From Bacillus marasmi (GTDB lineage: Bacteria; Bacillota; Bacilli; Bacillales; Cytobacillaceae), in assembly GCF_902168435.1 (NCBI RefSeq), contig NZ_LR656164.1, forward strand, positions 248,001-312,000: a stretch of 64,000 nt of DNA, in the 5' to 3' direction. The position numbers were made by a program, and so were the translations under genes. The stretch's first letter is position 1, and each line of letters starts with the position of its first letter. The notes beneath the pieces were generated by a model that was not told where the DNA came from, did no database searches, and saw only the letters and a program-made list of their open reading frames with translations. Shown here piece after piece: positions 1,025-43,895 of the stretch.

Positions 1025-1446
1025 GGTAACCATACAGGAGCAATGGTTCCCATTGGAGCGGAAAATCGAGTTGAGTGGTAACCATACAAGAGCAATGGTT
1101 ACCACTGGAGCAAATTTTTTAGGTGCACGGTAACCATACAAGAGCAATGGTTACCACTGGAGCAAATTTTTGAGGTGCACGGTAACCATACAAGAGCAAT
1201 TGTTACCATGAGAGCAAATTTTTGAGGTGCGCGGTAACCATACAAGAGCAATGGTTACCATTAGAGCAAATTTTCGAGGTGCACGGTAACCATACAAGAG
1301 CAATGGTTACCATTAGAGCAAATTTTCGAGGTGCACGGTAACCATACAAGAGCTATAGTTACCGATGGAACAAAATATCGAGGTGCAAGGTAACCATACA
1401 AGAGCAATGGTTACCATTGGAGTAAATTTTCGCGTTAAACGGTAAC
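1025..1446. repeat. Tandem array A1: 52-bp units with a palindromic core
   Basis: Eight full units and one partial unit begin with GGTAAC at 1025, 1077, 1129, 1181, 1233, 1285, 1337, 1389 and 1441, an exact 52-bp spacing. Each unit carries a 27-bp inverted repeat, GGTAACCAT, nine bases, then ATGGTTACC, with about 25 bp of spacer ending AATTTTCGAGGTGCAC. The fourth unit (1181) and the seventh unit (1337) have substitutions in one arm. A degraded unit may lie just upstream (GGAACGATA near 975). Short frames over the array are not genes: 52 is not a multiple of three and no ribosome binding sites are seen. The array is related to those at 29.6 and 43.2 kb. Confidence 0.95.
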
Positions 1447-1643
1447 AATACCAAATAGTATCGAATGCTCTAGAAACATCCCTAAGCAACAAAGCCACTA
1501 TTAATAATTCCCACAGATTGTTATTGAAAATGTAGCAATGCCTCGTCTAAAATACTATTTTTAGAAGATAGAGTCAGGCCTCATTTATGTGGAAATTTCC
1601 TATTAACATATTTTTTCAATATTTAAAATATTAATATTATTAA

Positions 1644-1658
1644 AAATTTCAGAAAATT
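1644..1658 (+). promoter_or_regulatory. Candidate CodY box upstream of sucCD
   Basis: AAATTTCAGAAAATT differs at one position from the published CodY consensus AATTTTCWGAAAATT. It lies 34 bp upstream of the predicted sucC -35 element. CodY itself is encoded at 11.9 kb in this window. In an AT-rich intergenic region a one-mismatch site can arise by chance, so the site is plausible but not proven. Confidence 0.5.
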
Positions 1659-1691
1659 ATAACAAATTTATGAACTTTTATGTTATATTGT

Positions 1692-1721
1692 TAGACATGG
1701 GAACACTATTTTAGATAAAAT
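1692..1721 (+). promoter_or_regulatory. Predicted sigma-A promoter of sucCD
   Basis: TAGACA (1692-1697) and TAAAAT (1716-1721) are separated by 18 bp and lie 46 bp upstream of the sucC ATG. No other gene lies between it and sucC. Confidence 0.45.
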
Positions 1722-1767
1722 GGTTTCACGCAGTCTATTTTTTAAGAGTTTGATAGGAGGATGGGAA

Positions 1768-2931
1768 ATGAATATCCATGAGTATCAAGGGAAAGAAATC
1801 CTCAGACAATACGGGGTATCCGTACCGAATGGGAAAGTGGCTTTTTCAGTTGAAGAAGCAGTAGAAGCAGCAAAAACATTAGAGACAAAAGTTTGTGTCG
1901 TAAAAGCACAAATCCATGCTGGCGGCCGCGGTAAAGCAGGTGGCGTTAAGGTAGCAAAGAACCTAGATGAAGTTCGTACATATGCAAACGAAATACTAGG
2001 CAAAACTTTAGTCACACACCAAACTGGACCAGAAGGAAAAGAAGTAAAACGTTTACTTATTGAAGAAGGCTGCGACATTAAGAAAGAATACTATGTAGGT
2101 TTAGTATTAGACCGTGCGACTTCACACGTAGTATTAATGGCATCAGAAGAAGGCGGAACAGAAATTGAAGAGGTTGCAGAAAAAACTCCTGAGAAAATCT
2201 TTAAGGAAGAAATTGATCCAATTGTCGGCTTAACAGCTTTCCAAGCGCGCCGCATTGCGTTCAACATTAATATTCCTAACCAACTCGTAAATCAAGCAGT
2301 GAAATTTATGCTTGGCTTGTACACAGCCTTTATAGAAAAGGATTGCTCTATTGCGGAAATCAATCCTTTAGTTGTGACAGGTGATGGCAAAGTAATGGCT
2401 TTGGATGCCAAATTAAACTTTGATGCAAACGCTTTATTCCGTCAAAAAGACGTATTAGAATATCGTGATCTTGATGAAGAAGATCCAAAAGAAATTGAAG
2501 CTTCTAAATATGACCTTAGCTATGTTTCCTTAGACGGAAATATCGGTTGTATGGTGAATGGAGCAGGTCTTGCGATGTCAACGATGGACATCATCAAATA
2601 TTATGGCGGCGAACCCGCAAACTTCCTTGATGTTGGGGGCGGCGCAACTGCTGAGAAAGTAACAGAAGCGTTTAAAATCATCCTTTCTGATCCGAACGTT
2701 AAAGGTATTTTTGTTAATATCTTTGGTGGAATTATGAAATGTGATGTTATTGCTACAGGTGTCATTGAAGCGGCGAAACAGGTTGGACTTGAAGTACCGC
2801 TTGTTGTTCGCTTGGAAGGAACAAATGTTGACCTTGGCAAGAAAATCCTGAGTGAGTCAGGATTAAATATCATCGCAGCGGAATCGATGGCTGATGGAGC
2901 CCAAAAAATCGTTTCCTTAGTATCGAATTAG
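1768..2931 (+). CDS. sucC: Succinyl-CoA ligase (ADP-forming), beta subunit
   Basis: This subunit pairs with SucD to interconvert succinyl-CoA and succinate with substrate-level formation of ATP in the TCA cycle. The N-terminal ATP-grasp domain opens with [17 protein letters not shown] and has the glycine-rich [12 protein letters not shown] loop. Residues EINPLVV mark the nucleotide/metal site, and the C-terminal half carries [11 protein letters not shown] and [10 protein letters not shown]. The length of 387 residues matches the family. The frame is open from 1720, but ATG 1768 has AGGAGG correctly spaced and gives the conserved N-terminus. sucD starts 27 bp downstream, so the two are co-transcribed from the promoter near 1700. 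Confidence 0.97.
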
Positions 2932-2958
2932 GATTAGGATTAGGAAGGGAGAATTCAC

Positions 2959-3861
2959 GTGAGCGTATATATCAATAAAGATACAAAAGTCATTGTGCAA
3001 GGTATTACAGGTTCAACTGCATTATTCCATACGAAACAAATGCTTGAGTATGGTACAAAAATCGTTGGTGGAACAACACCTGGTAAAGGTGGTACAGAAG
3101 TAGAAGGAGTTCCTGTATTTAATACAGTGAAAGAAGCCGTTGAGGCGACTGGTGCAACCGCTTCCGTAATTTACGTTCCGGCACCATTTGCTGCGGATGC
3201 TATTTTAGAAGCTGTTGAAGCAGAGCTTGACCTTGCTATTTGTATTACTGAACACATTCCTGTATTGGATATGGTAAAAGTAAAACGCTATATGGAAGGC
3301 AAGAAAACTCGCCTAGTCGGTCCAAACTGTCCGGGTGTTATTACTCCAGATGAGTGTAAAATCGGTATCATGCCGGGCTATATCCACAAAAAAGGTCATG
3401 TAGGTGTAGTTTCACGCTCTGGTACACTAACATATGAAGCTGTACACCAATTAACTCAAGCTGGAATTGGTCAATCAACAGCGGTTGGAATTGGTGGAGA
3501 CCCTGTAAACGGGACAAACTTCATCGATGTATTAAGCGCTTTCAATGAAGATTCTGAAACTTATGCGGTCATCATGATTGGTGAAATTGGCGGTACTGCT
3601 GAAGAAGAGGCTGCTGAGTGGATTAAAGCAAACATGACTAAGCCTGTTGTAGGATTCATTGGTGGACGTACAGCTCCTCCAGGTAAACGAATGGGACATG
3701 CTGGTGCGATTATTTCAGGCGGTAAAGGTACGGCTGATGAAAAAATTCGCGTCATGAATGAATGCGGAATTAAAGTAGCAGACACGCCATCTGTAATGGG
3801 TGAAACTTTAATTGAAGTGTTAAAAGAAAAGGATTTATACGAAAAGTGTCGAACTCATTAA
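2959..3861 (+). CDS. sucD: Succinyl-CoA ligase (ADP-forming), alpha subunit
   Basis: This is the CoA-binding and phosphohistidine subunit of succinyl-CoA ligase. The Rossmann-type CoA domain begins [19 protein letters not shown]. The phosphorylated histidine is His247 in [10 protein letters not shown], matching the catalytic histidine of E. coli Suc[10 protein letters not shown] and [10 protein letters not shown] are further family motifs. The protein has 300 residues and starts at GTG 2959 after AAGGGAG. It is directly downstream of sucC, as in nearly all Firmicutes. Confidence 0.97.
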
Positions 3862-3929
3862 AAGAGAGTTAGAGCTTTTAATGGTTTTGTAAGCAATTTG
3901 AACTTACAAGCTTCTATTAATAACAGTTG

Positions 3930-3981
3930 AGAGGATGACTTATTTGGCGAAGATTTCTTCTTCCCTAAGTAAGTCTCCTCT
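3930..3981. repeat. Long imperfect inverted repeat after sucD
   Basis: AGAGGATGACTTA (3930-3942) pairs with TAAGTCTCCTCT (3970-3981), leaving one bulged base, around a 27-base loop. There is no T tract immediately after the stem, so it is a poor intrinsic terminator. It may be an mRNA 3' end or processing structure for sucCD. The remaining sucD-dprA gap (3862-4080) shows nothing else definite. Confidence 0.45.
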
Positions 3982-4080
3982 TATCCTCGTGTTAAAAATC
4001 CTCTACTCCTATCTTTTTTATTCCAGGTCACAATTATATTTTTGAATATTTTGTGAACATTTTCACTTGGAGGTCATGTT

Positions 4081-4956
4081 ATGGATATGGATTTATTTAA
4101 ACGAAAGCTCCTTTTGCTTCATCATTGGAAGGGAGTCGGCTGGAATACTCTATTCCACATATTACAATCAGACCCAACCTTATCAAATGTAAACGATTTC
4201 ACCACCGCTGAATTAAAACAACATTATCATCTCCCAACCCGCTCTATACCCTACAGCAATCTTCAAATTAATCGCACTCTCTCGTTTATTGACAGCTATG
4301 AACAGAATAACATCTTTCCAATTACTATTTTTGACGAAGAATATCCTAAACTCCTTAAGGAAACCTACCAGCCGCCCTGGGTAATATATGCGAAAGGAAA
4401 AATAGATTTATTACATCATCCTAAAAAATTGGCGGTTGTCGGTTCGAGGCAAGCCACGGACTATGGAAGGATGGCAATCCAACTACTATTTCCTGATTTG
4501 ATTCTGTCCGGCTTTGCGATTGTGAGTGGACTTGCCAAAGGAATTGACACGATTAGTCATAAAACGGCAATACACTGTGGAGGAAAAACGATCGCTGTTA
4601 TTGCCGGTGGCTTCCATCATTTATATCCTAAGGAAAATCAAAAATTGGCTGAAACGATGATGAACAGTCATTTGATAATATCTGAGTACCCACCAGACAC
4701 AAGACCAGAACGATGGCATTTTCCGTTAAGAAACCGGATTATTAGCGGAATCACTTGTGGAACATTAATTGTCGAAGCGGAAAAGAAGAGTGGCTCATTA
4801 ATTACGGCAAATTATGCTCTCAACGAAGGTCGAGAGGTTTTCGCAATACCTGGTAGTATCTTAAATCCTGGATCCAATGGGACAAATGAATTGATTCAAC
4901 AGGGTGCGAAGCTTGTCAAAACTGCTGTCGATATCACGGAGGAACTGTCGTTTTGA
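4081..4956 (+). CDS. dprA: DNA processing protein DprA (Smf)
   Basis: DprA binds incoming single-stranded DNA and loads RecA onto it during natural transformation. The Rossmann-like core contains LAVVGSRQATDYG, IVSGLAKGIDTISHKTAI and PLRNRIISGITCGTLIVEA, all family hallmarks. The N-terminal ~70 residues form the helical/HhH-like region. The length of 291 residues is close to the B. subtilis protein (297). ATG 4081 follows GGAGGT at normal spacing. The gene precedes topA, as in B. subtilis. Presence of dprA alone does not show that the organism is transformable, because DprA is widespread. Confidence 0.95.
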   Translation: MDMDLFKRKLLLLHHWKGVGWNTLFHILQSDPTLSNVNDFTTAELKQHYHLPTRSIPYSNLQINRTLSFIDSYEQNNIFPITIFDEEYPKLLKETYQPPWVIYAKGKIDLLHHPKKLAVVGSRQATDYGRMAIQLLFPDLILSGFAIVSGLAKGIDTISHKTAIHCGGKTIAVIAGGFHHLYPKENQKLAETMMNSHLIISEYPPDTRPERWHFPLRNRIISGITCGTLIVEAEKKSGSLITANYALNEGREVFAIPGSILNPGSNGTNELIQQGAKLVKTAVDITEELSF

Positions 4957-5112
4957 TTTAATGGAATGATTTATTTTGAGTGATTGTATAATTCAAAAAA
5001 GTGACTTTTTTAAATTATTTTTATAAAAAAGGTTGAAATTATTGCCAATCTGTTATACATTTTGCAACAGATATTCCTCGTGTGTATCATTAATTTTTTT
5101 TCGTTCTTTACG

Positions 5113-5126
5113 TGAAAACGTTTTCT
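5113..5126 (+). promoter_or_regulatory. Consensus cre (CcpA) site upstream of topA
   Basis: TGAAAACGTTTTCT fits the catabolite-responsive element consensus TGWAARCGYTWWCW at every position, and its core GAAAACGTTTTC is a perfect palindrome. The centre lies about 58 bp upstream of the start site expected from the promoter at 5142-5171. That resembles the placement at CcpA-activated promoters such as B. subtilis ackA. Binding is inferred only. Confidence 0.5.
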
Positions 5127-5141
5127 TTAATTAATTATACA

Positions 5142-5171
5142 TTGACAAATTGATTTTATTTGTTCAATAAT
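5142..5171 (+). promoter_or_regulatory. Predicted sigma-A promoter of topA
   Basis: A perfect -35 TTGACA (5142-5147) is followed after 18 bp by AATAAT (5166-5171). This would start transcription near 5178, 65 bases before the topA ATG. Confidence 0.6.
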
Positions 5172-5242
5172 AGTGATTAATTTATTTAACCTATATCTCG
5201 AAATAAAGATTTACGAATAATCCCTCTAAGGAGGACTACTGG

Positions 5243-7324: not shown

Positions 7325-7351
7325 GGGTGAGCATCGTGCTCACTCTTTTTT
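7325..7351 (+). terminator. Intrinsic terminator of topA
   Basis: GGGTGAGCA and TGCTCACTC pair around a three-base loop, and a run of T follows immediately. Confidence 0.85.
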
Positions 7352-7503
7352 ATGGAAAAATCATTTTATTATTGCTTTTTTCTTAAATATTAAAGTTTTC
7401 ATTAAAATTTCGTATGAAGAGATGTAAAATGGATAGGATTGTGGGTAAAGTAGTATTGGTTGAAATACCCTCACCTAAATACAAAAATAAGGGGAATAAT
7501 ATA

Positions 7504-8808: not shown

Positions 8809-8814
8809 AGTTTC

Positions 8815-8843
8815 TTGTAAACCCCTTTATATTATGATAATAT
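8815..8843 (+). promoter_or_regulatory. Predicted promoter of the xerC-hslVU-codY operon
   Basis: TTGTAA (8815-8820), a 17-bp spacer and TAATAT (8838-8843), with TGA just before the -10 as an extended -10 element. xerC starts 27 bp downstream. Confidence 0.6.
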
Positions 8844-8869
8844 TTAGAAGCCTTTGTGAGGTGACTAAA

Positions 8870-9775: not shown

Positions 9776-9798
9776 ACAGGAAGAAAGGGGTTTAGTAC

Positions 9799-10341: not shown

Positions 10342-10361
10342 ACGAAAGGAGACTTAATTGT

Positions 10362-11771: not shown

Positions 11772-11875
11772 TCATAGGTAATGAGATTTGGGTGAATAAC
11801 CAATAGGTTTTTTAATAGAGAAAAAAACACAATAAAATATGATGTTTTGTTTGAAGCACATAGGAGGAAGAATTA

Positions 11876-12655: not shown

Positions 12656-12665
12656 TACACAACCA

Positions 12666-22439: not shown

Positions 22440-25353
22440 TTGATTGATTCAAGTGGGAAAAAAGAACGTTTCCAACTTTTGCTTCAGCAGCTCGAGATGA
22501 CCGAGGATGCAATTGTTCGGTATTTTGAAAATGCCCAGCTGCAAAAGGTTGTTGTTGAACGTGACACAGGTAAATATCATTTCCATTTTTTATTAGAAAA
22601 AATATTACCGGCGACGATTTATCAACTATTGGCTGCGAGATTACAAAGTACTTTTTCGTATATTGCAAAGACATCAACATTCTCTTTGCAAGTATTAGAC
22701 ACACAATACCAACCTGAAATTGCTCAGGAATATTGGAAGTTGTGTGTTCAAGAAATCGACGGTATGTCTCCCCCGATTCAAAAGCTTCTGCATGAGCAAA
22801 TGCCGAATGTCACCGGAAATAAGCTGACGATTAAAGTTCATAATGAGCCACAAGGACTTAGTATTAAGAATAAATATTCAAGTCTTATTTCTACCATCTA
22901 TCAATCCTTTGGTTTCCCCCAGCTAATGCTCGATACTGAGGTATCAAATGATGCATCCAAAGTGGAACAGTTCATGAAGCAAAAAGAAAAGGAAGACCAA
23001 GAAAAAGCATTGCTCGCACTTGTAGAAATGCAGAAAAAGGATAATGACAAGGATAAAGGTGGAGATACAGATCATAGCGGACCGCTTGTGGTAGGTCTAA
23101 CAATTAAACCTGATGCTGACTTCCGCAGGATTGAAGAAATTAACGAAGAAGAGCGCAGGATTGCGATTGAAGGATACGTATTTGCTGCAGAAACGAAGGA
23201 GTTACGCAGTGGAAGAACGCTGCTAACCTTTAAAATCACAGATTATTCTAGCTCGATAATGGTCAAAATGTTCTCCCGCGATAAGGAGGACGCTGCCCTG
23301 TTTGAACGTGTAAAAAAGGGAATGTGGTTAAAGGTACGAGGCAGTGTTCAAAATGATACATTTGTGCGTGACCTAGTCATGATTGGTAATGACCTAAATG
23401 AAATCAAGCCTGTTGAGCGAAAAGATACTTCTCCTGAGGATGAAAAACGGGTGGAGCTCCATCTTCATTCACCTATGAGTCAAATGGATGCCGTTACATC
23501 AGTAAGTGCGCTAGTTGCTCAGGCAAAAAAGTGGGGGCATAAGGCAATTGCTATAACAGACCATGCTGTTGCCCAATCGTTCCCGGAGGCATTCGGAGCT
23601 GGGAAGAAAAACGATGTCAAAATCTTGTATGGAGTTGAAGCGAATTTAGTCGATGATGGTGTACCGATTGCTTATAATCCGGCACATCGCCTGCTTGCTG
23701 AGGATACTTACGTTGTATTTGACGTAGAAACAACGGGACTTTCAGCGGTATATAATACAATTATTGAATTAGCAGCCGTGAAAATTCGGGGTGGAGAAAT
23801 TGTTGATCGGTTCGAATCGTTCGCAAATCCACATCACCCGCTATCTGCTACGACAATTAATCTTACTGGAATTACCGATGATTTGGTCCAAAATGCCCCA
23901 GAGGTAGGAGAGGTCATTCGTGATTTCCATGCATGGACTGAGGATGCAGTTCTAGTTGCACACAATGCATCGTTTGACATGGGCTTTTTAAATGTTGGTT
24001 ATAAAAAGATAGGATACGATAAAGCAACCAACCCTGTCATTGATACATTGGAGTTAGGACGATTCCTATATCCTGAGTTGAAAAACCATCGCTTAAACAC
24101 GCTTGCGAAAAAGTTCGATATTGAACTGACTCAACATCACAGAGCAATTTATGATGCTGAAGCAACTGGATATTTGCTCATAAAAATGTTAAAGGATGCC
24201 GCTGAAAAGGGTATCGAGTATCATGATCAGTTTAACGACAATATGGGGAAAGGGAATGCCTATCAGCGTGCCCGACCTTATCATTGTATTTTACTAGCCC
24301 AGACAGAGCTTGGTTTGAAAAATTTATTTAAGCTTATTTCTATCGCTCATATTGAATACTTTTATCGAGTACCGCGAATCCCAAGATCTGTCCTACAAAA
24401 ATATCGCGAAGGTATTTTAGTAGGGTCCGCTTGTGACAAAGGTGAGGTATTCGAAGGAATGATGCAAAAATCGCCTGACGAAGTGGAAGGAGTAGCAGCA
24501 TTTTACGATTATTTAGAGGTAATGCCAAAACCTGTATACGCTCCATTAATAGAAATGGAATTGGTTCAGGATGAGAAAGCTCTTGAGCAAATTATCGGAA
24601 ATATCGTTGCTTTAGGCGATAAGTTAGATATTCCTGTTGTTGCGACTGGAAATGTCCATTATCTAAATGAGAATGATAAAATTTACCGAAAAATCTTAAT
24701 CAACTCTCAAGGTGGCGCCAATCCGTTAAATCGTCATGAGCTACCAGACGTTCATTTTAGAACGACTAACGAGATGCTTGATGCTTTTTCCTTCCTTGGA
24801 AAAGAGAAAGCAAAAGAAATCGTCGTAACGAATACCAATAAAATCGCCGATATGATTGACGTGATTAAGCCGATTAAAGATGACTTATATACACCGAAAA
24901 TTGAAGGCGCCGATGAAGAAATGCGGGAAATGAGCTATGCGATGGCTCGCAAAATCTATGGTGATGAGCTTCCTGAAATTGTCGAAGCACGCTTAGAGAA
25001 AGAATTGAAAAGTATTATCGGACATGGATTTGCGGTTATTTATTTGATTTCCCATAAGCTTGTAAAGAAATCATTAGACGATGGTTATCTTGTTGGCTCG
25101 CGGGGATCTGTTGGTTCCTCCTTTGTCGCGACAATGACCGAAATTACCGAGGTAAACCCATTGCCGCCGCATTACGTTTGCCCATCATGTAAGCATTCTG
25201 AGTTTTTTAATGATGGTTCGGTTGGTTCTGGTTATGACCTACCAGATAAAGACTGCCCTAATTGTGGAGCAAAATATCGCAAGGATGGACAGGATATCCC
25301 GTTTGAAACCTTCCTAGGCTTCAAAGGAGACAAGGTACCCGATATTGATTTGA
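22440..25353 (+). CDS. polC: DNA polymerase III alpha subunit PolC, exon 1 (intron-split)
   Basis: PolC is the essential replicative DNA polymerase of Firmicutes. Exon 1 encodes the N-terminal domains and OB fold, a split PHP domain starting [15 protein letters not shown], and an inserted DEDDh proofreading exonuclease ([29 protein letters not shown]). A zinc-binding segment follows with CPSC and CPNC about 30 residues apart. It ends at the catalytic motif PDIDL: Asp968 and Asp970, then one base of codon 972. Without splicing, translation runs five codons into the intron (SVTRS) and stops at 25370, giving a 976-residue fragment. The start is TTG 22440, nine bases after GAGAGGAG. Joined to exon 2 the coding length is 4320 nt, 1439 residues, against 1437 in B. 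subtilis. Confidence 0.96.
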
Positions 25354-26083
25354 GTGTGACACGTTCTTAACTGAAAAGGTTAAGCACTAGTATTTGCTAG
25401 GAGAACTGCTATTTCGAAGTGTGGAATGATGGAGTAACGTCCAGAAACGCACTCACTGAAGCTACGGCAAGCGATGGAGATATTGCAAACATTAACATCG
25501 TTTGAAGCCCGTTAAAGTAGGCTGAAGTTCACCCTAACAGTACGGCTGAGGAAAGGGAGGTACAACCTTCTGTGAATGATAGGTCTGGTGTCTATAAAAT
25601 TCCTATGGTTAGAATCAGTAGAATCACTGGGACGAACCCTCGACTGACTTTTCGTGAATGTCACGTAGCAGAAATGTTACGGGGTCCGTATTAGGACTTC
25701 TGAGTGTGGATGAGTAAGCGTTTGGTTATGAAAATCCATATTGTGTTACAGGCACAATCAAGCTCAGCGGAATTTAGGGGGAACCTAAGGGAATATGTAC
25801 AGATAGAAATAGTGGAACGTGTGAAGCTCTCGACATAAGAGGATGTTGCAGTCTGAAGACGATGGTATGTGGAAAGGCAATTTGCTATAACACATTTTAT
25901 GAGAGTGGCAGTAGTGCCGTAGTACCGATGAAGAAATGCCGCTGATGACTGAATACCCAATAGGTCGGAGGATAAAACATTTCAGAGGGAAGGGCACAAG
26001 TCGTTAACGTTGAAATCAAACCTACAATAAGTCAGATTCGTGTATGACTAAAGAGAACGAAAACTTCGTAAAGGAGTGATTAG

Positions 26084-27910
26084 TTGGCTGACTTAATGAT
26101 TCAAAAGCTAAGAAATAACGAATATTTCGGCTTACAACCAATTTTCGATAATCTTTACGAACAGAGCAATAGTAGTCGCTATTTTACAGACATTTATAAG
26201 CTGATTATTTCCGAAGAAAATATTTTATTAGCCTTTCGAAACCTGAAAAGCAATACAGGCAGTAAAACGAAAGGTACAAACGGACATACGATTAAGCATT
26301 TAAATAAACTGGATGCCAATAAATTAGTTAGATTAACAAGGAAAAGACTTGAGAACTACTCACCACATACGGTTAGGAGATTATTCATTCCGAAGCCCAA
26401 TGGCAAGATGAGACCACTTGGGATTCCAACGATTGAAGATAGATTAATACAACAAATGTTCTTACAAGTGCTTGAACCGATTGTGGAAGCGAGGTTTCAT
26501 CCTCAAAGCTATGGATTCAGACCTAAAAGAAGCACACACGATGCATTAGCAAGATGCTATCACATGGTCAATCATAGTCATCAGCATTTCGTGGTTGATG
26601 TAGATATCAAGAGTTTTTTCGACAATGTGAATCACAAAAAACTAATAAGGCAGCTATGGACGATTGGAATAAGGGACAAGAGTGTTTTATCTATTATTAA
26701 AAAGATGCTTAAAGCTGAAATTACAGGTGAAGGCATTCCGAAAAAAGGGACTCCACAAGGCGGCATTTTATCTCCACTACTTGCCAATGTAGTGCTGAAC
26801 GAATTAGATTGGTGGGTTTCTAATCAGTGGGAAACAAAGCCGACTAGAGTACCTTATAAGCTGAAACGAAATAAAACGGATGCACTAAAAAAGACAAGGC
26901 TAAAGCCAATGTATCTGGTTAGATACGCAGATGATTTTAAAATATTCACAAACTCCTATGATAACGCTAGGAAGATTAAAATAGCGGTGGAAAAATGGCT
27001 CAAAGAAAGATTAGGGCTTGAAATAAGTGAAGAAAAAAGTAAAATCACTAATTTGCGAAAAAACGGTACAGATTTTTTAGGTATTCGATTTAGAGCCGTT
27101 CAAAAAGGAAATGCCAAAACAGGTTACATTGTAAATTCAAAAATGGACCCGAAATCAAAACAAAAAGTTCAAGAGGTCATAAGGCATCAGTTAGTAAAAC
27201 TTCGAAAATGTCCTACCCCAGAAAAAGTGATGAATTTCAATGCGAACATTCTTGGGTTGCATAACTATTACAAGATTGCGACAAGGATATCTCAAGACTT
27301 TAATGAGATAAGACACCAAGTTCATCCGAATATTAAATCGTTGATATTTAGAAATATATTCGTGAAAACGAAAGAAACAAACAATGTCATTGATAAATTT
27401 TATGGGGACTACAATTATCCAAGATTTAAAAGCAATGGATTGCTGGTATATCCTATCGAAGCGATTCGTCATGATATACGAGGACAGAGAAAACCTGATA
27501 TTACGATTTACAACGAGAATGACAGGTCCTCAATTCATAAAGATTTAAAACAAATGTCTGTTCGTGAAATTGAAATGTTTCGTAAGGGAATATTTAAAGC
27601 GAAAAGTGTATTGTATGAAAACAACCGCTTAAGCAAGTATGTGGCTCAAAAAGGATGTTGCGGTATAACAGGTGAACGTTTGACACCGCATAATGCAGTC
27701 TGCCACCATATTAAGCCGACAGGACAAGGCGGAAGTGATGAGTATGACAACTTGCTTATTATTAACAAGAAATATCATATGCTCATTCACGGTAAAGACC
27801 CGATTGCGAATAAAGATTACGTAAAACTGTTAGCTAAATTGGAAAAGAAAGCAATAACAAAGCTAAACAGGCTAAGAACGGAAGTAGGAAATCCAAAGCT
27901 TAGCCTATAA
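26084..27910 (+). CDS. Group II intron-encoded reverse transcriptase/maturase with HNH endonuclease
   Basis: The protein helps its own intron fold and splice and copies the spliced-in intron RNA into DNA at new sites. RT domain blocks are visible: RRLFIPKPNGKMRPLGIPT, QSYGFRPKRSTHDAL, VDIKSFFDNV, GTPQGGILSPLLANV and the active site YADD at residues 281-284. A thumb/maturase (X) region follows at about 340-500. The C-terminal HNH domain holds CHH at 540-542 and GGSDEYDNLLIINKKYH. No frameshift or stop interrupts its 608 residues. TTG 26084 follows AAAGGAG at seven bases. It is translated only from the intron RNA, in the same direction as polC. Confidence 0.95.
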   Translation: MADLMIQKLRNNEYFGLQPIFDNLYEQSNSSRYFTDIYKLIISEENILLAFRNLKSNTGSKTKGTNGHTIKHLNKLDANKLVRLTRKRLENYSPHTVRRLFIPKPNGKMRPLGIPTIEDRLIQQMFLQVLEPIVEARFHPQSYGFRPKRSTHDALARCYHMVNHSHQHFVVDVDIKSFFDNVNHKKLIRQLWTIGIRDKSVLSIIKKMLKAEITGEGIPKKGTPQGGILSPLLANVVLNELDWWVSNQWETKPTRVPYKLKRNKTDALKKTRLKPMYLVRYADDFKIFTNSYDNARKIKIAVEKWLKERLGLEISEEKSKITNLRKNGTDFLGIRFRAVQKGNAKTGYIVNSKMDPKSKQKVQEVIRHQLVKLRKCPTPEKVMNFNANILGLHNYYKIATRISQDFNEIRHQVHPNIKSLIFRNIFVKTKETNNVIDKFYGDYNYPRFKSNGLLVYPIEAIRHDIRGQRKPDITIYNENDRSSIHKDLKQMSVREIEMFRKGIFKAKSVLYENNRLSKYVAQKGCCGITGERLTPHNAVCHHIKPTGQGGSDEYDNLLIINKKYHMLIHGKDPIANKDYVKLLAKLEKKAITKLNRLRTEVGNPKLSL

Positions 27911-27933
27911 CCTTCAACAAAGTTAACGATGGA

Positions 27934-27968
27934 ACGCCGTGTGAGTGTGAAAGCCTCATGCACGGTGT
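27934..27968 (+). ncRNA. Group II intron domain V
   Basis: ACGCCGTG (27934-27941) pairs with CACGGTGT (27961-27968). A two-base bulge (TG) follows on the 3' side, then TGAG/CTCA and a GAAA tetraloop. This is the standard two-helix domain V with a CGC catalytic triad near its base. A domain VI stem (GATAG/CTATC, about 27989-28013) lies between it and the 3' splice site at 28017. Confidence 0.85.
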
Positions 27969-28017
27969 GGAGTGGGGGAAAAGCTCGAGATAGCATCAAA
28001 GGCTTACCTATCACTAT

Positions 28018-29423
28018 ACTTTTCCGGGGAGTACCAGCCGCGGGCTCACAATTATACAAAGGTTCTGTTTGGTGAAGAGTATGTATACCGTGCTGGTACG
28101 ATTGGTACGGTCGCAGATAAAACGGCCTTTGGTTATGTGAAAGCTTATCAGCAGGATAATAATCTGCAAATTCGCGGTGCTGAAATTGAACGACTAGCTT
28201 CAGGCTGCACAGGTGTTAAACGAACGACAGGACAACACCCTGGCGGTATCATCGTAATTCCGGATTATATGGATGTTTATGATTTCACACCAATTCAATT
28301 CCCGGCCGATGATCGAAATTCCGAATGGAAAACAACCCATTTTGACTTCCATTCCATCCATGATAACGTGCTTAAGCTAGATATACTCGGGCACGATGAT
28401 CCGACCGTCATTAGGATGCTTCAGGACTTGAGTGGCATCGATCCAAAGACGATACCGACTGACGATCCAGTCGTGATGAAAATCTTTAGCGGTACAGAAT
28501 CCCTTGGTGTAACGGAAGATCAAATCATGTGTAAAACTGGAACACTAGGAATTCCTGAATTCGGAACGCGCTTTGTAAGGCAAATGCTCGAGGACACAAA
28601 GCCAACTACTTTTTCTGAATTAGTTCAAATTTCGGGATTGTCGCATGGTACGGACGTTTGGCTTGGCAATGCCCAGGAATTGATCCATCAAAAAATATGT
28701 AATCTGAGCGAAGTTATTGGTTGTCGTGATGACATCATGGTTTATTTAATCTATCAAGGCTTAGAACCATCCTTCGCGTTTAAAATTATGGAATCGGTTC
28801 GTAAAGGTAAAGGCCTTTCTGATGAAATGGAAGAAGAAATGCGGAAAAATGAAGTGCCGGAATGGTACATCGATTCCTGCAAAAAAATCAAGTATATGTT
28901 CCCTAAGGCCCATGCCTCTGCCTATGTATTAATGGCCGTCAGAATTGCCTATTTTAAAGTTCATCATCCGCTGTTATACTACGCAGCATATTTTACCGTT
29001 CGTGCTGAAGATTTTGATTTGGACGCAATGGTTCGTGGGTCACAATCAATCAAAGCCAAAATAGAAGAAATTAATAATAAAGGTTTAGAAGCTTCAACTA
29101 AAGAAAAGAACTTACTAACAGTAATGGAACTAGCACTTGAAATGTGTGAACGCGGATTCTCATTTGCTAAGGTTGACCTTTATCGTTCAAGCGCCAACGA
29201 ATTTATCATTGATGGTAATAAGTTAATTCCACCATTTAATGCGATTCCAGGTCTTGGAACGAACGTGGCCTTCAATATTGTAAAAGCACGGGCAGATGGT
29301 GAATTTCTGTCCAAGGAAGACCTGCAACAAAGAGGTAAAGTATCAAAAACATTGATTGAATTCCTCGACAACCACGGTTGCTTAGAGGACTTACCTGACC
29401 AAAATCAGCTGTCGCTGTTTTAG
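28018..29423 (+). CDS. polC: DNA polymerase III alpha subunit PolC, exon 2
   Basis: Exon 2 supplies the rest of the PolC polymerase domain. Its first two bases complete codon 972 (Asn) and the protein continues [21 protein letters not shown]. Conserved segments include [75 protein letters not shown] and a helix-hairpin-helix near [15 protein letters not shown]. The C-terminus PDQNQLSLF is the beta-clamp binding motif. The reading frame extends upstream into the intron to 27972 by chance. The third catalytic aspartate is expected in this exon. Confidence 0.95.
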
Positions 29424-29474: not shown

Positions 29475-29510
29475 AAAAGCACCCTCTAACTTTGGGGTGC
29501 TTTTGTTTTT
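29475..29510 (+). terminator. Intrinsic terminator of polC
   Basis: AAAAGCACCC pairs with GGGTGCTTTT around a ten-base loop, followed by GTTTTTT. Confidence 0.88.
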
Positions 29511-29570
29511 TATAAAAATAAAGACTGAAAAAAGTGCTGAATTTCTCGTTTATGCCTAGAATATGTCATC

Positions 29571-29985
29571 AATGATTGGAATTGAGTATTTATAAGGAGG
29601 GTAGCTCCGAAACCAAGCAATCAATGAGTGCGATTGAGTATTTAATTTCGAGAGTAGTGCGGAAACCAAGCAATCAATGAGTGCGATTGAGTACTTAATT
29701 TCGAGAGTAGTGCGGAAACCAAGCAATCAATGAGTGCGATTGAGTATTTAATTTCGAGAGTAGTACGAAAACCAAGCAATCAATGAGTGCGATTGAGTAT
29801 TTAATTTCGAGCGTAGTGAGAAAACCAAAGCATCAATAAGTGCTATTGAGTACTTAATTTTGAGCGTAGTGCGGATACCAAAGCATCAATGAGTGCGATT
29901 GAGTACTTAATTTCGAGCGTAGTACGAAAACCAAGCAATCAATCAGAGCTATTGAGTACTTAATTACAAGTGAGGCACCAAAACC
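29571..29985. repeat. Tandem array A2: 53-bp units
   Basis: ATTGAGTA recurs at 29581, 29633, 29686, 29739, 29792, 29845, 29898 and 29951, a spacing of 53 bp (52 for the first). A typical unit runs AACCAAGCAATCAATGAG, TGCGATTGAGTATTTAATTT, CGAGAGTAGTGCGGA. Each unit has an inverted repeat TCAAT, seven bases, ATTGA, preserved even in the divergent units at 29845 and 29951. The ATT-GAG...AATTTCGAG..GTGC part resembles array A1. There is no coding frame. The array sits between the polC terminator and the rimP promoter. Confidence 0.93.
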
Positions 29986-32727: not shown

Positions 32728-32746
32728 TTTTAGCGGGGGTGAAAGA

Positions 32747-35259: not shown

Positions 35260-35275
35260 TAACGGGGTGAAAAAC

Positions 35276-35644: not shown

Positions 35645-35668
35645 TTGTTTTTCTTCCTAGCAATTAGT

Positions 35669-35701
35669 AAGGGCTGACTTTGTTTAAGTCAGCCTTTTTT
35701 T
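35669..35701 (+). terminator. Intrinsic terminator after rbfA
   Basis: AAGG-CTGACTT pairs with AAGTCAGCCTT around TGTTT, with a seven-T tail. A short remnant resembling the 5' end of the palindromic element (TCTAGCTC...GCCTAG) follows before truB. Confidence 0.85.
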
Positions 35702-35743
35702 GAGTGTCTAGCTCAAATGCCTAGTGACAAGGAGGTATGATGA

Positions 35744-36667: not shown

Positions 36668-36694
36668 GAAAGTTGTAGAAAAGGTGAGTAATTC

Positions 36695-37642: not shown

Positions 37643-37751
37643 GACCTTGCTTTTTGTCAAAAAAAGATGTATTCTAATATTCGTATGACGAACCTTTGCT
37701 TGGCAATACGACTCACCGACGTTTGCTCAGTAATAGGGGATAATTAACTAG

Positions 37752-38033
<282 letters not shown>

Positions 38034-38040
38034 TCAGCAG

Positions 38041-38066
38041 AAGCGGGATTTTTTCCCGCTTTTTTG
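38041..38066 (+). terminator. Intrinsic terminator of rpsO
   Basis: AAGCGGG pairs with CCCGCTT around a T-rich loop, followed by T's. Confidence 0.88.
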
Positions 38067-38160
38067 TTATGTAAGAACTATTTTTACATTTTTGGAAAAT
38101 GTTATGAATTATACATATTTTTACGACTATTTTAAGGAACAATGATAATGGTCATAATAG

Positions 38161-38340
38161 TAGAAAGGCATAAGAGCTAAACTGAAGCTAATGAGTAGCT
38201 TTTTGATCTAGCTCTTAGTTGCATTTATAAACTCCATGCTCCGGGGCTAATACCTCGGTTCACATAAGCGAATTTGATATTCACCTTTGAAAAAGCAAAG
38301 GTTAATGATAAAAGAAAAGGATAGGTCCTTATCACCATTG
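38161..38340. other. Structured pnp leader / decayed palindromic element
   Basis: The 310-bp gap before pnp holds a long hairpin: TAAGAGCTA near 38171 pairs with TAGCTCTTA near 38210, and inside it AAGCTA pairs with TAGCTT. Next come CTCCGGGGCTAATACCTCGG and CACATAAGCG, recalling the palindromic element seen at 30.8 and 40.5 kb. A second hairpin ACCTTTG/CAAAGGT follows near 38283-38303. It may be a decayed copy of the element that now forms the pnp 5' leader. Confidence 0.4.
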
Positions 38341-38375
38341 GATTGGTGATATTGGTAGAGAGGGGTTAAAAAAGT

Positions 38376-40496
38376 ATGGGTCAAGAAAAACATGTGTTTT
38401 CGATAAATTGGGCTGGCCGGACATTATCAGTTGAAATCGGACAACTAGCAAAACAGGCAAATGGTGCCGCATTAGTGCGTTATGGTGATACGGTGGTAAT
38501 GAGTACAGCAACGGCATCTAAAGAGCCAAAACCATTGGATTTCTTTCCGCTGACAGTTAATTATGAAGAGAGATTGTATGCGGTTGGTAAAATTCCTGGT
38601 GGCTTCATTAAACGGGAAGGTCGTCCGAGTGAAAAGGCGATTTTAGCGAGCCGTTTAATTGACCGTCCAATTCGTCCGTTATTTGCAGATGGATTCCGTA
38701 ATGAAGTTCAAGTCGTTAGCATTGTCATGAGCGTTGATCAGGATTGTTCCTCAGAAATGGCAGCTATGTTTGGATCTTCATTAGCATTAAGCGTTTCAGA
38801 TATTCCGTTTGAAGGCCCGATTGCTGGTGTAGTTGTTGGTCGTGTTGATGGGAAATTCGTGATTAACCCAACTGTCGAAGAATCTGAAAAAAGTGATATG
38901 CACTTATCCGTAGCAGGTACTAAATATGCTATTAACATGGTTGAAGCAGGCGCTAAGGAAGTTCCTGAGCAAGTCATGCTTGAAGCAATTATGTTCGGCC
39001 ATGAAGAAATTAAAAAATTAATCTCTTTCCAAGAGGAAATCGTTGCTCAAATCGGTAAAGAAAAAACAGAAATCACATTATTTGAAGTGGATAAAGAGCT
39101 TGAGACGGAAATTCGTGATGTATGTGAGCAAGAAATGATTGCTGCGATTCAAGTTCAAGAAAAGCATGCTCGCGAAGCTGCGATTAAAGCTGTAAAGGAA
39201 AAAGTCCTTGCAAAGTACGAAGAAGCCGAAGCAGAAGCTGATGTGCTGAAGCAAGTTAAGCAAATCCTTGATAAAATTGTTAAAGGTGAAGTACGCCGTT
39301 TAATTACTGTAGAAAAGGTTCGTCCAGACGGCCGTAAACCAGATGAGATTCGTCCGCTTTCATCTGAAGTAGGCTTATTACCACGTACACATGGGTCAGG
39401 TCTGTTTACCCGTGGACAAACACAAGCGTTAAGTATTTGTACACTTGGTGCTTTAGGTGATGTTCAAATCCTAGATGGACTTGGGATTGAAGAAGAAAAA
39501 CGCTTTATGCATCACTACAATTTCCCTAATTTCAGCGTTGGGGAAACTGGTCCAATGCGCGGACCTGGTCGTCGTGAAATTGGTCACGGTGCTTTAGGTG
39601 AACGTGCGCTTGAACCAATTATTCCAGATGAAAAAGATTTCCCATATACTGTTCGTCTAGTATCAGAGGTGCTTGAATCAAATGGTTCAACATCACAAGC
39701 AAGTATTTGTGCTAGCACTTTGGCAATGATGGATGCTGGTGTTCCGATTAAAGCACCAGTTGCCGGAATCGCAATGGGACTTGTTAAATCAGGAGAACAT
39801 TATACGATTTTAACTGATATCCAAGGTATGGAAGACCACTTAGGTGATATGGACTTTAAAGTAGCTGGAACAGCTAAAGGTGTTACGGCACTTCAAATGG
39901 ATATTAAAATCGATGGACTTTCTCGTGAAATTTTAGAAGAGGCGCTTCAACAAGCCCAAATTGGTCGGATGCACATTTTAGAATCGATGCTTAGTACAAT
40001 TGATCAGCCTAAGCAAGAGCTTTCAAAATATGCACCAAAAATCTTGACTATGCATATTAACCCAGACAAAATCCGAGATGTTATTGGACCAAGCGGAAAA
40101 CAAATCAATAAGATTATTGAAGAAACTGGCGTAAAAATTGATATCGAGCAAGATGGTACAATCTTCATCTCGTCTACAAATGAAGAAATGAACCAAAAAG
40201 CGAAGAAGATTATCGAGGATATTGTGCGCGAGGTTGAAGTTGGTCAAATGTATCTAGGTAAAGTTAAACGAATTGAAAAATTTGGTTGCTTCGTTGAAAT
40301 TTTTGCAGGTAAAGATGGCCTTGTTCACATTTCCGAACTTGCTGAAGAGCGCGTAGGAAAAGTAGAGGACGTCGTTTCAATTGGAGATGAGCTTCTTGTA
40401 AAAGTAACTGAAATTGACAAGCAAGGTCGTGTAAACCTATCTCGCAAGGCAGTTCTAAAAGAGCAACGCGAACAACGCGAACAAGCACAACAATAA
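38376..40496 (+). CDS. pnp: Polyribonucleotide nucleotidyltransferase (PNPase)
   Basis: PNPase degrades RNA 3' to 5' by phosphorolysis and adds 3' tails in reverse. Two RNase PH domains are present: the first near residues 10-140 ([19 protein letters not shown]), the second around 315-550 with TRGQTQAL and [23 protein letters not shown] domain ([15 protein letters not shown]) and S1 domain ([17 protein letters not shown]) close the 706 residues. ATG 38376 follows AGAGGGG. The upstream leader is structured. Confidence 0.97.
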
Positions 40497-40500
40497 CTAA

Positions 40501-40612
40501 AAGCGGTAGCGGCTTGCCCAGGAGCGATATGCATAAGACGAATCACGCAAGAGACGTTAGTCTCTTACGTGAATTGGATTATGCCCCCGAGCTCCTAGCT
40601 GCTGGAGCTAGA
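40501..40612. repeat. Palindromic intergenic element, copy 2 (inverted, after pnp)
   Basis: Read on the minus strand it starts TCTAGCTCCAGCAGCTAGGA and ends GCCGCTACCGCTT, the same frame as copy 1 at 30781 but in the opposite orientation. The shared parts include CTTATGC. The central hairpin differs in sequence: TCACGCAAGAGAC with GTCTCTTACGTGA (12 of 13 pairs). It lies between the pnp stop and the pnp terminator. Confidence 0.85.
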
Positions 40613-40630
40613 TATAAGTGTTATACAGTG

Positions 40631-40657
40631 AAAAGTCAGGGGGCTCCCTGACTTTTT
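40631..40657 (+). terminator. Intrinsic terminator after pnp
   Basis: AAAAGTCAGGG pairs with CCCTGACTTTT around GGCT, with a T tail. Confidence 0.9.
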
Positions 40658-40732
40658 CAAGTTGTATAAGTAAATACCTTTGTTCTACCTTGTCCAGCCC
40701 CCTCATATTTTAATGATGAAGGGGGCATGACA

Positions 40733-41683
40733 ATGAGAAAAATGAATGTATTAATGATCGTTATTATCACGACATTATGTATTGTATACAATCCGATAGC
40801 GGATCAATATGTCGCCTTACTGAAAGGTGAGACAGTTCACGTTGATAAACATAGTAATCCACTATATGAGGAAATAATAAAGAAGAGTAAGCTTTATGAG
40901 GTTAAGGCAATCGATGCCAAAATTGATTCGGTTTGGAAAGCAACCCCAGGTTATAATGGGCGTGAAGTGGACATCGAAGCATCTTTTCAAAAAATGAAGA
41001 AACAAGGTAAATTTACTGAAGATATGCTAATCTTTAAACAAACTAAACCAAAGGTCCACCTCGATGATTTGCAAGCATCACCGATTTATCGGGGGAATCC
41101 AGAAAAACCTATGGTTGCTTTTATCATAAATGTTGCATGGGGAAATGAGTATTTGCCTGATATGTTAGCAACCTTAAAAAAGCATAATATAAAAACGAGC
41201 TTTTTTCTTGAAGGGCGCTGGGCAAAGGAAAATCCAGATTTAACAAAAATGATATATGAGGCAGGCCACGAAATTGGCAATCATTCCTATACTCATCCCG
41301 ATATGAAAAATTTATCAGCGGCTGAAATAAAAAATCAATTGCAAAAAACAAATGATGTGATAGAAGCAACAACTGGCCAAGTACCGAGATGGTTTGGTCC
41401 TCCGAGTGGAAGCTACCGTGACGAAGTAGTAAAAATCGCTGACGTGCTAGGACTTGGGACAATCATTTGGAGCGTTGATACGATCGATTGGCAAAGACCA
41501 GCCCCGGAGACTATCATCCAACGCGTTGAAACTAAGGTTCACCCTGGGGCACTCATTCTCATGCACCCAACAGCTCCGACTGCCAAGGCACTCGACCGCC
41601 TTATTACCATCATGGATCGCAAGAATTTACGAATAGGAACGGTGTCGGAAACGCTAAGTGAAGAGCGAATCCAATCAAATTAA
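40733..41683 (+). CDS. ylxY: YlxY-type polysaccharide deacetylase-like protein
   Basis: This is a membrane-anchored or exported NodB-fold protein between pnp and mlpA, the place of ylxY in B. subtilis. An N-terminal hydrophobic segment (about residues 4-20) is followed by a ~100-residue stalk and a NodB domain. The usual metal/catalytic motif TFDDG is replaced by NVAWG (FIINVAWGNEYLP), so both aspartates are missing. Motif 2 HSYTHPD is kept, and DTIDWQ and ALILMH stand for motifs 4 and 5. Deacetylase activity is therefore doubtful. ATG 40727 is also possible, but ATG 40733 is spaced correctly from AAGGGGG (316 residues). Confidence 0.88.
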   Translation: MRKMNVLMIVIITTLCIVYNPIADQYVALLKGETVHVDKHSNPLYEEIIKKSKLYEVKAIDAKIDSVWKATPGYNGREVDIEASFQKMKKQGKFTEDMLIFKQTKPKVHLDDLQASPIYRGNPEKPMVAFIINVAWGNEYLPDMLATLKKHNIKTSFFLEGRWAKENPDLTKMIYEAGHEIGNHSYTHPDMKNLSAAEIKNQLQKTNDVIEATTGQVPRWFGPPSGSYRDEVVKIADVLGLGTIIWSVDTIDWQRPAPETIIQRVETKVHPGALILMHPTAPTAKALDRLITIMDRKNLRIGTVSETLSEERIQSN

Positions 41684-41701
41684 CTAGAAAAATACATCAT
41701 T

Positions 41702-41731
41702 TTGGAAAAAAAAATCATAATAAGTTATACT
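41702..41731 (+). promoter_or_regulatory. Predicted promoter of mlpA
   Basis: TTGGAA (41702-41707), an 18-bp spacer and TATACT (41726-41731), 80 bp before the mlpA start. Confidence 0.5.
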
Positions 41732-41810
41732 TATTAATTAGTTGGATCGGTTTTTATTTTTCTAACATCAACAATCCGCATCCGCTTTTCGACGACTGGG
41801 AGGAGTTTCT

Positions 41811-43046
41811 TTGATTACAAAATATACTTGTCAAAATGGAATAAGAGTGGTACTAGAAAATATTCCAACTGTACGATCTGTTGCGATTGGCATATGGATT
41901 GGCACAGGATCCAGAAATGAAACCCCCGAATTAAACGGGATCTCACATTTTTTAGAGCATATGTTTTTCAAAGGGACAAAAACAAGATCAGCTAGAGAAA
42001 TAGCTGAGTCATTTGATAGCATCGGCGGTCAAGTAAATGCGTTTACTTCCAAAGAGTATACCTGCTATTATGCGAAGGTGTTGGATACCCATGCACCATT
42101 TGCTTTGGAAGTATTGGCAGATATGTTTTTCAATTCGACGTTTGATGAAGAGGAATTACTGAAAGAGAAAAATGTTGTTTACGAAGAAATTAAAATGTAT
42201 GAGGATACACCGGATGATATCGTTCATGATTTGCTCAGTAAAGCTGTATATCAAAATCATCCGCTTGGCTATCCAATTCTAGGTACAGAGGATACTTTGC
42301 AAACTTTTTCTGGTGAAACATTAAAGCAATACATGAGGGATGCCTACACACCTGAAAATGTTGTCATTTCAATTGCTGGTAACATCTCTGATACCTTCAT
42401 TAAAGAGGTTGAGTCTTACTTTGGTTCCTACGAAGGCCAAAGAGCTGTTCAGTCTGATGTAAAACCGGATTTTAACGTCAACCAAATTACACGTAAAAAG
42501 GAAACCGAACAAGCACATCTTTGCATTGGTTTCAATGGTTTACAAGTAGGGCATGACGATATTTATGAACTAATTGTTTTAAATAATATTTTAGGTGGCA
42601 GCATGAGCAGCCGTTTGTTCCAGGAAGTTCGCGAGCAGCGTGGTTTAGCTTATTCTGTATTTTCCTACCATTCCGCCTATCAGGATAGTGGGATTGTGAC
42701 CATTTACGGTGGTACAGGAGCAAAACAGTTAGATGTATTATTTGAAACGATTCAAGAAACTTTAACGAAACTAAAAGAAACCGGTATTACCGAAAAAGAA
42801 CTTAATAATAGTAAGGAACAGTTAAAGGGGAGCTTAATGCTTAGCCTTGAAAGCACGAATAGCCGTATGAGCCGCAACGGTAAAAATGAGCTATTGTTAA
42901 GCAGACACCGTTCCCTTGACGAAATCATCGAGCAAATCGATAAGGTCGAGAAAAACGCCGTAAATCAAATGGCTAACTCCATTTTTAACGACCAGTATTC
43001 CTTAGCATTAGTAAGTCCAGATGGGGAATTACCGAAAATCAAATAA
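41811..43046 (+). CDS. mlpA: M16 family zinc protease MlpA (YmxG)
   Basis: This is a mitochondrial-processing-peptidase-like protease; in B. subtilis MlpA affects extracellular protease expression. The inverted zinc motif HFLEH (GISHFLEHMFFKGT) is intact, with the downstream glutamate in VVYEEIKMYEDTPDD. A second, non-catalytic M16 lobe contains NNILGGSMSSRLFQEVREQRGLAY split over the usual positions. The length of 411 residues matches (409). TTG 41811 follows GGGAGGAG. A terminator and repeat array A3 follow. Confidence 0.95.
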   Translation: MITKYTCQNGIRVVLENIPTVRSVAIGIWIGTGSRNETPELNGISHFLEHMFFKGTKTRSAREIAESFDSIGGQVNAFTSKEYTCYYAKVLDTHAPFALEVLADMFFNSTFDEEELLKEKNVVYEEIKMYEDTPDDIVHDLLSKAVYQNHPLGYPILGTEDTLQTFSGETLKQYMRDAYTPENVVISIAGNISDTFIKEVESYFGSYEGQRAVQSDVKPDFNVNQITRKKETEQAHLCIGFNGLQVGHDDIYELIVLNNILGGSMSSRLFQEVREQRGLAYSVFSYHSAYQDSGIVTIYGGTGAKQLDVLFETIQETLTKLKETGITEKELNNSKEQLKGSLMLSLESTNSRMSRNGKNELLLSRHRSLDEIIEQIDKVEKNAVNQMANSIFNDQYSLALVSPDGELPKIK

Positions 43047-43057
43047 CTAGTTTTGAT

Positions 43058-43097
43058 AAATGACGTGCCCAGTTTTTATGAGGGCGCGTCATTTTTT
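43058..43097 (+). terminator. Intrinsic terminator after mlpA
   Basis: AAATGACGTGCCC pairs with GGGCGCGTCATTT (one mismatch) around an 11-base loop, followed by T's. Confidence 0.88.
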
Positions 43098-43150
43098 GAT
43101 TTTGGCAAATAGCGTCTACCGTGCCCGATAAGCAGGAAAATCTCGATGAT

Positions 43151-43895
43151 GGTAATCACCATAGGGCGTCAATAATGCCCGATAAGCCTGAAAAAACTTA
43201 ATGGCGGTAACCATAGAGAGTCTATGGTGCCCAAGAAGCATGAAAAAAACCGATGACGGTAACCATAGAGAGTCTATGATGCCCGATAAGCCAGAAAAAA
43301 CTCGATGACGGTAACCATAGGGCGTCAATGATGCCCGATAAGCCAGAAAAAACTCGATGACGGTAACCATAGAGCGTCAATGATGCCCGATAAGCCTGAA
43401 AAAACTTAATGGCGGTAACCATAGAGAGTCTATGGTGCCCAAGAAGCATGAAAAAAACCGATGACGGTAACCATAGAGAGTCTATGATGCCCGATAAGCC
43501 AGAAAAAACTCGATGACGGTAACCATAGGGCGTCAATGATGCCCGATAAGCCAGAAAAAACTCGATGACGGTAACCATAGAGCGTCAATGATGCCCGATA
43601 AGCCAGAAAAAACTCGATGACGGTAACCATAGGGCGTCAATGATGCCCGATAAGCCAGAAAAAACTCGATGACGGTAACCATAGGGCGTCAATAGTGCCC
43701 GATAAGCACGAAAAAAACCGATGATGGTAACGATAGCTCGTCTACCGTGCTTGATAGGTGCCAAAAAAACCAATGACGGTAACGATAGCTCGTCTACCGT
43801 GCCCATAATCCCGAAAAAACCTGATAGCGGTAACGATAGCTGGTCTATCGTGCCCGAGAGGCGCAAGAAAACCCGCTGAGAGTAACGATAGCTCG
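43151..43895. repeat. Tandem array A3: 52-bp units with higher-order duplication
   Basis: GGTAA recurs at 43151, 43206, 43258, 43310, 43362, 43414, 43466, 43518, 43570, 43622, 43674, 43726, 43778 and 43829, with a degenerate AGTAA unit at 43881. The step is 52 bp except 55 at the first (TCA insertion) and 51 once. A four-unit block of 208 bp is duplicated (about 43188-43395 and 43396-43603). Units contain a hairpin whose arms vary together: GGGCGTC/GATGCCC, CCATAGA/TCTATGG, CGATAG/CTATCG. Minus-strand frames over it are artefacts of a 156-bp (3 x 52) open periodicity. It lies between the mlpA terminator and ymxH. Confidence 0.95.

Follow-up and report, generated by a model that had tools for sequence, protein, structure and literature searches.

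Subirana and Messeguer (2021) described tandem repeats of 52 nt, of unknown function, in roughly 30% of the Bacillus species they examined (PMC8161180). The units are constant in size and variable in sequence, their sequences are stated not to be conserved between species, and short signals 'and their reverse' often lie within one repeat; a nucleoid protein or a small RNA was proposed as their role (PMC8161180). The terms hairpin, palindrom, leading, lagging and orientation do not occur in the main text of that paper, and among the papers listed by our literature search no other dealt with the 52-nt repeats of Bacillus. Here we describe three arrays of such repeats, A1, A2 and A3, in a 64,000-nt stretch of the Bacillus marasmi genome (the window; positions 248001-312000 of contig C13, RefSeq NZ_LR656164.1, from a 4.64-Mb genome in 46 contigs). 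A first-pass annotation of the window, made from the letters alone, knew of no named Bacillus element with these properties, but the class is already published (PMC8161180) and the three arrays belong to it, sharing its 51-53-nt unit, the coexistence of several families in a genome, a largely non-coding location and an accompanying 20-21-nt class. We find that the arrays consist of imperfect palindromes (two half-sites, 27 bp in the family we call alpha), repeated in tandem every 52-53 bp and rarely found singly. The best explanation, which we hold tentatively, is that they are duplex-DNA sites of a two-fold protein, evolving in step with the arms and having a replication-polar role.

The polar sites of replication, Ter/RTP of B. 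subtilis and the FtsK orienting polar sequences and SpoIIIE recognition sequences (KOPS/SRS), have an orientation locked to the direction of replication, and RTP sites are imperfect dyads. The alpha arrays share the locked orientation; unlike Ter/RTP, they come as rows of 52-bp units and not as single sites. Repetitive extragenic palindromes (REP) are imperfect and intergenic, often lie 3' of genes, are arrayed in bacterial interspersed mosaic elements (BIMEs) and are linked to RAYT transposases. The arrays described here are likewise rows of imperfect palindromes, intergenic and often 3' of genes, but their single copies are rare and the RAYT-like genes carry other palindromes. A CRISPR locus has cas genes and short repeats separated by unique spacers; in the present arrays the whole unit, spacer included, is repeated.

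Results

Tandem Repeats Finder (TRF) finds all three arrays where the first-pass annotation had placed them, with periods of 52, 53 and 52 bp. Alignment of circular units against 1000 shuffles relates A1 to A3 (z 6.0, 0/1000 shuffles) and A1 to A2 (z 5.2, p 0.002), whereas A2 and A3 show no significant similarity (z 0.4, p 0.34). Judged by their sequences, A1 and A3 form the alpha family and A2 a second one (gamma), tied to A3 via A1 only; the one diverged family first proposed thus becomes two, with A1 bridging them.

The alpha unit reads GGTAAC-arm-loop-arm-GTGCCC (27 bp) and is followed by a 25-bp spacer. A scan of named genomes with a pattern in which nothing but GGTAAC, GTGCCC and a period of 52 bp was fixed found this scaffold at 115 loci or more, in at least 62 named species or strains (labels assigned here), against about 7.5 chance matches expected for the whole collection by our own arithmetic. 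The 115 loci analysed below are the matches listed, a set neither complete nor random, and its species rows are related, so that shuffles overstate independence. Arrays also occur in records titled Chryseobacterium sp. ISL-80 and Paenibacillus bovis DE0126 (L102 and L187), which are possibly mislabelled. Allowing any spacer from 10 to 40 bases gave matches in 23 of 199 genomes of the order, spread over 15 of 98 genera, with a single match in the backward control. For 14 of these 23 genomes the search lists 150 places, with a maximum of 20 per genome; by hand count their spacer is 25 bases in 132, 26 in 13, 24 in 4 and another length in one. Unit steps in the alpha set equal 52 in 605 of 656 cases. 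Single copies are rare: of the 116 alpha sites in the sampled DNA that have no more than one outer mismatch, 114 lie in arrays and 2 outside them (reversed-sequence control, 1 site).

Within the scaffold the two arms change in concert. The inner three bases pair at 2.40 of 3 positions in the 115 arrays, against 1.06 with right arms shuffled (standard deviation 0.07), and in 63 arrays the inner arms are fully paired. When each species is represented by one array, pairing of the inner four bases reaches 3.03 of 4 positions against 1.48 (standard deviation 0.12), and 16 distinct inner 4-mers occur with their perfect partner. The concerted change that had been read from A3 is thus borne out far outside the window, and unit lists show it as well. 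Inside A3 the arms pass from CAT/ATG to GAT with ACC or ATC, the 3' block being a compensatory change within one array. An array at C16:207404 of the same genome shows an arm change in progress: 11 units carry GAT/ATC and 6 CAT/ATG, followed by three mismatched intermediates and then seven units with CAA, six of them with TTG.

The inner arms are 0.82 (left) and 0.80 identical within species, compared with 0.52 for the loop and 0.55 for the spacer; identity between species is 0.32-0.36 (left inner arm, 0.36), and in this the arms resemble the species-specific short signals of the published class (PMC8161180). In the same-genus genome G003, 42 listed places have a left inner arm GAT in 41 and a right one ATC in 40 (hand count). 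Divergence within arrays is likewise lowest in the inner arms (0.101; loop 0.205, spacer 0.169), and edge units diverge more. That arms are preserved within an array, and likewise from array to array of a species, suggests that they are recognised in trans. The earlier suggestion that fixed length and paired changes reflect selection gains support from the free-spacer result, the covariation and the low divergence of the arms.

The mismatches between arms are mostly A-A. At the species level A-A makes up 0.54 of them against 0.24 expected, and G-T 0.11 against 0.13; among distinct units we counted 29 G-T, 27 A-C and 125 A-A in 1216 cells. The claim of a hairpin in every unit holds for A1, where a two-unit stretch (1233-1336) is predicted to form the 9-bp hairpin with z of about -6 on both strands, as RNA and as DNA. 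A2 folds little beyond shuffles (z -0.15 to -1.75), its dyad appearing once, in one of four predicted folds, and A3 gives z of -0.46 to -2.88 with the alpha dyad absent from the predicted folds. Mismatches of the A-A rather than the G-T type, together with weak folding of A2 and A3, speak for recognition of duplex DNA by a two-fold protein.

Alpha lies on the leading strand in 99 of 107 listed loci, as judged from the GC skew around them (loci up to 8 kb long, eight with |GC skew| <0.03 having been dropped beforehand). This sense prevails 32 to 6 in convergent and 8 to 0 in divergent settings with clear skew. On five chromosomes with dnaA located, 27/27 array loci are on the leading strand, a count that takes contig C1 of G055 as circular (two loci) and the terminus of G075 as opposite dnaA (one), and is otherwise 24/24. 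In G003, with dnaA at 0.163 Mb of a 4.60-Mb contig, 12/12 loci agree, six at 1.17-2.32 Mb on the plus strand and six at 2.92-4.33 Mb on the minus strand; one of these opposes both flanking genes and one has a contrary local skew. G175, G177, G075 and G055 contribute 6, 3, 2 and 4 listed loci, all (15/15) in agreement with dnaA. In the genome of the window, 12 arrays of alpha or alpha-like type whose direction can be defined agree with the skew by our own reading, four of them placed by resemblance only and A1 being too symmetric to count.

The first-pass annotation had reckoned that a lack of further arrays, amid many other periods, would speak against it. Its proposal withstands this check: in 832 kb of the genome (including C13 whole, as well as C23 and pieces of C16 picked for arrays already seen there) TRF finds 75 tandem-repeat loci, 29 of them with a period of 50-54 bp; on the whole contig C13 the count is 13 of 38. 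The units of these 29 arrays are unlike each other and represent several families of equal length, although 24 chain into one group (z>4, 60 shuffles a pair), weakly, as the chaining runs over 406 pairs. Singly, the best inverted repeat reaches p<0.05 in 10 of the 29 consensus units; one array for each of 9 families gives a combined p of 4e-6, with arrays hand-chosen, one family represented by the best of four, and 0/200 shuffles entered as 0.005. Among published consensus units, 14 of 22 tested have an inverted repeat at p<0.05 (combined 6e-15); these are 22 of the 27 in the published Table 1, omitting kochii 92_54, oceanisediminis 96_54, thermoamylovorans 5_52, alcalophilus 41_51 and sp. m3-13 20_52. 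A single, similarly placed inverted repeat in each unit is therefore a tendency, from which one family departs (below).

The arrays sit mostly 3' of genes. All but one of the 29 are clear of other open reading frame (ORF) calls, A3 being overlapped by an antisense call. Gaps holding arrays on C13 and C16 are co-directional in 15 cases, convergent in 10 and divergent in none (n=25, that is, 25 of the 26 arrays there, A3 having been dropped owing to the antisense call), whereas gaps of at least 200 bp without arrays number 106, 23 and 44, respectively. In other species 9 of the 115 listed alpha loci have a divergent setting by ORF calls, and the five of these that were scanned have Pfam families in both flanking proteins.

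Shorter periods, of 19-22 and 40-42 bp, also occur among the arrays of C13 and C16 (L048-L087; TRF); nine are listed with their neighbours, 5 co-directional, 4 convergent and 0 divergent. Repeats with a period of 118-124 bp lie at C13:25105, 216617, 226206, 242777 and 314826 (TRF), some sharing segments like CAGCGGCT.

Discussion

Arms that vary between species yet match, that are constant within a species, that show A/T swaps more than wobble, and that recur every five turns fit the site of a two-fold protein, and the strict orientation suggests a replication-polar role; we infer both the protein and the role. Each palindrome would be a duplex site for a dimeric or otherwise two-fold protein, which would read the outer half-sites GGTAAC and GTGCCC and the species-specific inner 3-4 bp of both arms. 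With a period of 52 bp, or about five helical turns, the bound proteins may be stacked along the same face of the duplex. The asymmetric outer half-sites (TA left, GC right) could give the array a direction and so serve a replication-polar process, for which chromosome organisation, segregation and fork passage are candidates. As the specificity of the protein drifts, both arms would follow. Among the roles suggested at first pass, a protein-binding array fits best, while an RNA is disfavoured. A bolder version, in which some Bacillales have an undescribed architecture of many arrays along the chromosome, each a phased row of asymmetric palindromes bound by a co-evolving protein, and in which these arrays act like dispersed Ter or KOPS sites, as one-way gates or direction marks for the replication fork or a DNA translocase, is in our judgement unlikely.

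The published class, hitherto enigmatic, gains a testable anatomy: a dyad scaffold common to many genera, compensatory arms, a five-turn period and, in one family, orientation by replichore. The spread of the alpha scaffold, the arm covariation, the 52-bp period with a free spacer, the replication polarity and the rarity of single copies are new here.

Several observations weigh against a two-fold protein with a polar role. No binding protein was identified, and the two families tested, Y1 transposases and RTP, do not fit. One family of the genome (C13:16403, C16:129284 and C16:153144) is without a dyad (inverted repeat p 0.5-1.0). The outer arms and the 52-bp spacing are constant in the 115-locus set because they were part of the search pattern. 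Polarity was seen for alpha only, the other families being too few or too symmetric for it to be defined, and the orientation of gamma looked mixed by eye (5/7, ill-defined). Counted once per position and array, G-T mismatches exceed A-C by 21 to 11, which leans slightly to a stem (6.7 against 4.3 per species draw). In the related G002 the A3 site holds an array with arms mostly GAT/ATC, in G003 an array lies one gene beyond it, and in G001 and G004 the site has none. Given this change of occupancy among genomes of one genus, and with just one alpha place in G001, no individual array is required.

The leading alternative treats the arrays as neutral satellite DNA that is more stable in one orientation than in the other. 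Arrays would grow by slippage or unequal recombination, template switching would perfect their palindromes, and they would survive in the fork-stable orientation and where they are harmless, 3' of genes. The turnover of occupancy among same-genus genomes, the more diverged edge units and the empty divergent gaps (0/25 against 44/173 long gaps without arrays) are in line with this, as is single-stranded DNA predicted to be stabler on the plus than on the minus strand by 1.4-3.3 kcal/mol in A1, A2 and A3. Template switching, however, would be expected to even out the TA/GC difference between the outer arms as well, which spans many genera; the arms are conserved above loop and spacer both within arrays and within species; and the strand difference of RNA folds has no constant sign. 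We consider a neutral origin possible but doubtful.

A repeated structured RNA, with the arrays transcribed and the arms as its stems, appears very unlikely by mismatch types, folds and orientation. In its favour, transcription of satellite repeats has been reported in B. coagulans (PMC8625621). Moreover, A1 folds well, the plus strand of A3 as RNA folds better than 199/200 shuffles, though via other pairs, the arrays lie near gene 3' ends, and the G-T excess per array would suit a stem. Against an RNA are the near equality of G-T and A-C among distinct units, species-level G-T that is not raised, a period of exactly 52 that stems do not need, an orientation that holds in divergent settings (8/8 with clear skew) and once against both flanking genes, and the position of A2 after a terminator-like hairpin. 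The anatomy and polarity of the arrays make an RNA less likely.

A REP/BIME-like element moved by a RAYT transposase is scarcely credible: Y1_Tnp proteins occur in 5/5 genomes of the genus, and two in the genome of the window are RAYT-like by length and sequence (label assigned here), but both genes are flanked by other palindromes, no exact alpha site lies in their loci, and alpha single copies are rare (2/116 sites), which leaves the link unsupported. These two genes (L222, 1306-1899, minus strand; L227, 1462-2061, plus strand) each have their own palindrome near both sides, GGGGGACTGTCCCCC and GGTGCCTGTCACC respectively, the latter with its second copy within the ORF end; both are unlike the 52-bp arrays.

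Three further candidates were rejected. An RTP-Ter fork trap as such is contradicted by the RTP family, found in 0/5 genomes of the genus with a positive B. subtilis control. Phage or plasmid cargo is opposed by the alpha tandem pattern having no match in viral contigs, by A1 and A3 having no similarity to plasmids and by A3 having none to phages. As to arrays of terminators, a terminator scan gave three terminator-like sites inside A1, on the minus strand, and reported none for the A3 region, where an inverted repeat and a T run are visible by eye at 43060-43097.

Other features of the window

The coordinates are collected in Table 1. By Pfam families of the neighbours, rnhB and sucC flank A1, ahead of which lies a degenerate unit; A2 separates the 3' part of polC from rimP, and A3 is flanked by genes for an M16 peptidase and a PRC-barrel protein. 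For A2, TRF reports 29567-29965, with 6.7 copies over 29609-29965; the remainder to 29985 is a degenerate unit judged by eye. The A2 region has two terminator-like hairpins (mean of shuffles, 0.5).

Table 1. Repeat arrays of the window and features within or beside them (window positions)
Feature	Position	Strand	Description	Basis
Array A1	1025..1451	+	alpha family, symmetric form GGTAACCAT-9-ATGGTTACC; period 52, 8.2 copies (about 8 units)	TRF, unit list
Dyad, first A1 unit	1025..1051	+	arms 9, loop 9	sequence; A1 consensus inverted repeat p 0.010
Terminator-like hairpin	29475..29504	+	after 3' part of polC, just ahead of A2	terminator scan
Array A2	29567..29985	+	gamma family, TCAAT-7-ATTGA; period 53 and multiples	TRF, sequence
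Dyad, A2 unit	29615..29643	+	AAGCAATCAAT-7-ATTGAGTATTT, imperfect	sequence; A2 consensus p 0.095
Array A3	43112..43895	+	alpha family; period 52 and multiples, 15 alpha units (unit list)	TRF, Pfam, unit list
Alpha dyad, A3 unit	43310..43336	+	inner arms CAT/ATG	sequence, unit list
3' block of A3	43726..43895	+	four units, inner arms GAT with ACC (two) and with ATC (two)	sequence, unit list

The polC gene is split by a group II intron (window 22440-29423), with the PolC N-terminal part at 22440-25370 and the C-terminal part at 27972-29423; RNA matches to the intron lie at 25401-25598 and 27932-28017, and its reverse transcriptase ORF at 26084-27910. An Rfam match to rliD (38341-38533, minus strand; 55 bits, cut-off 50) lies antisense over the start of a 706-aa ORF at 38376-40496.

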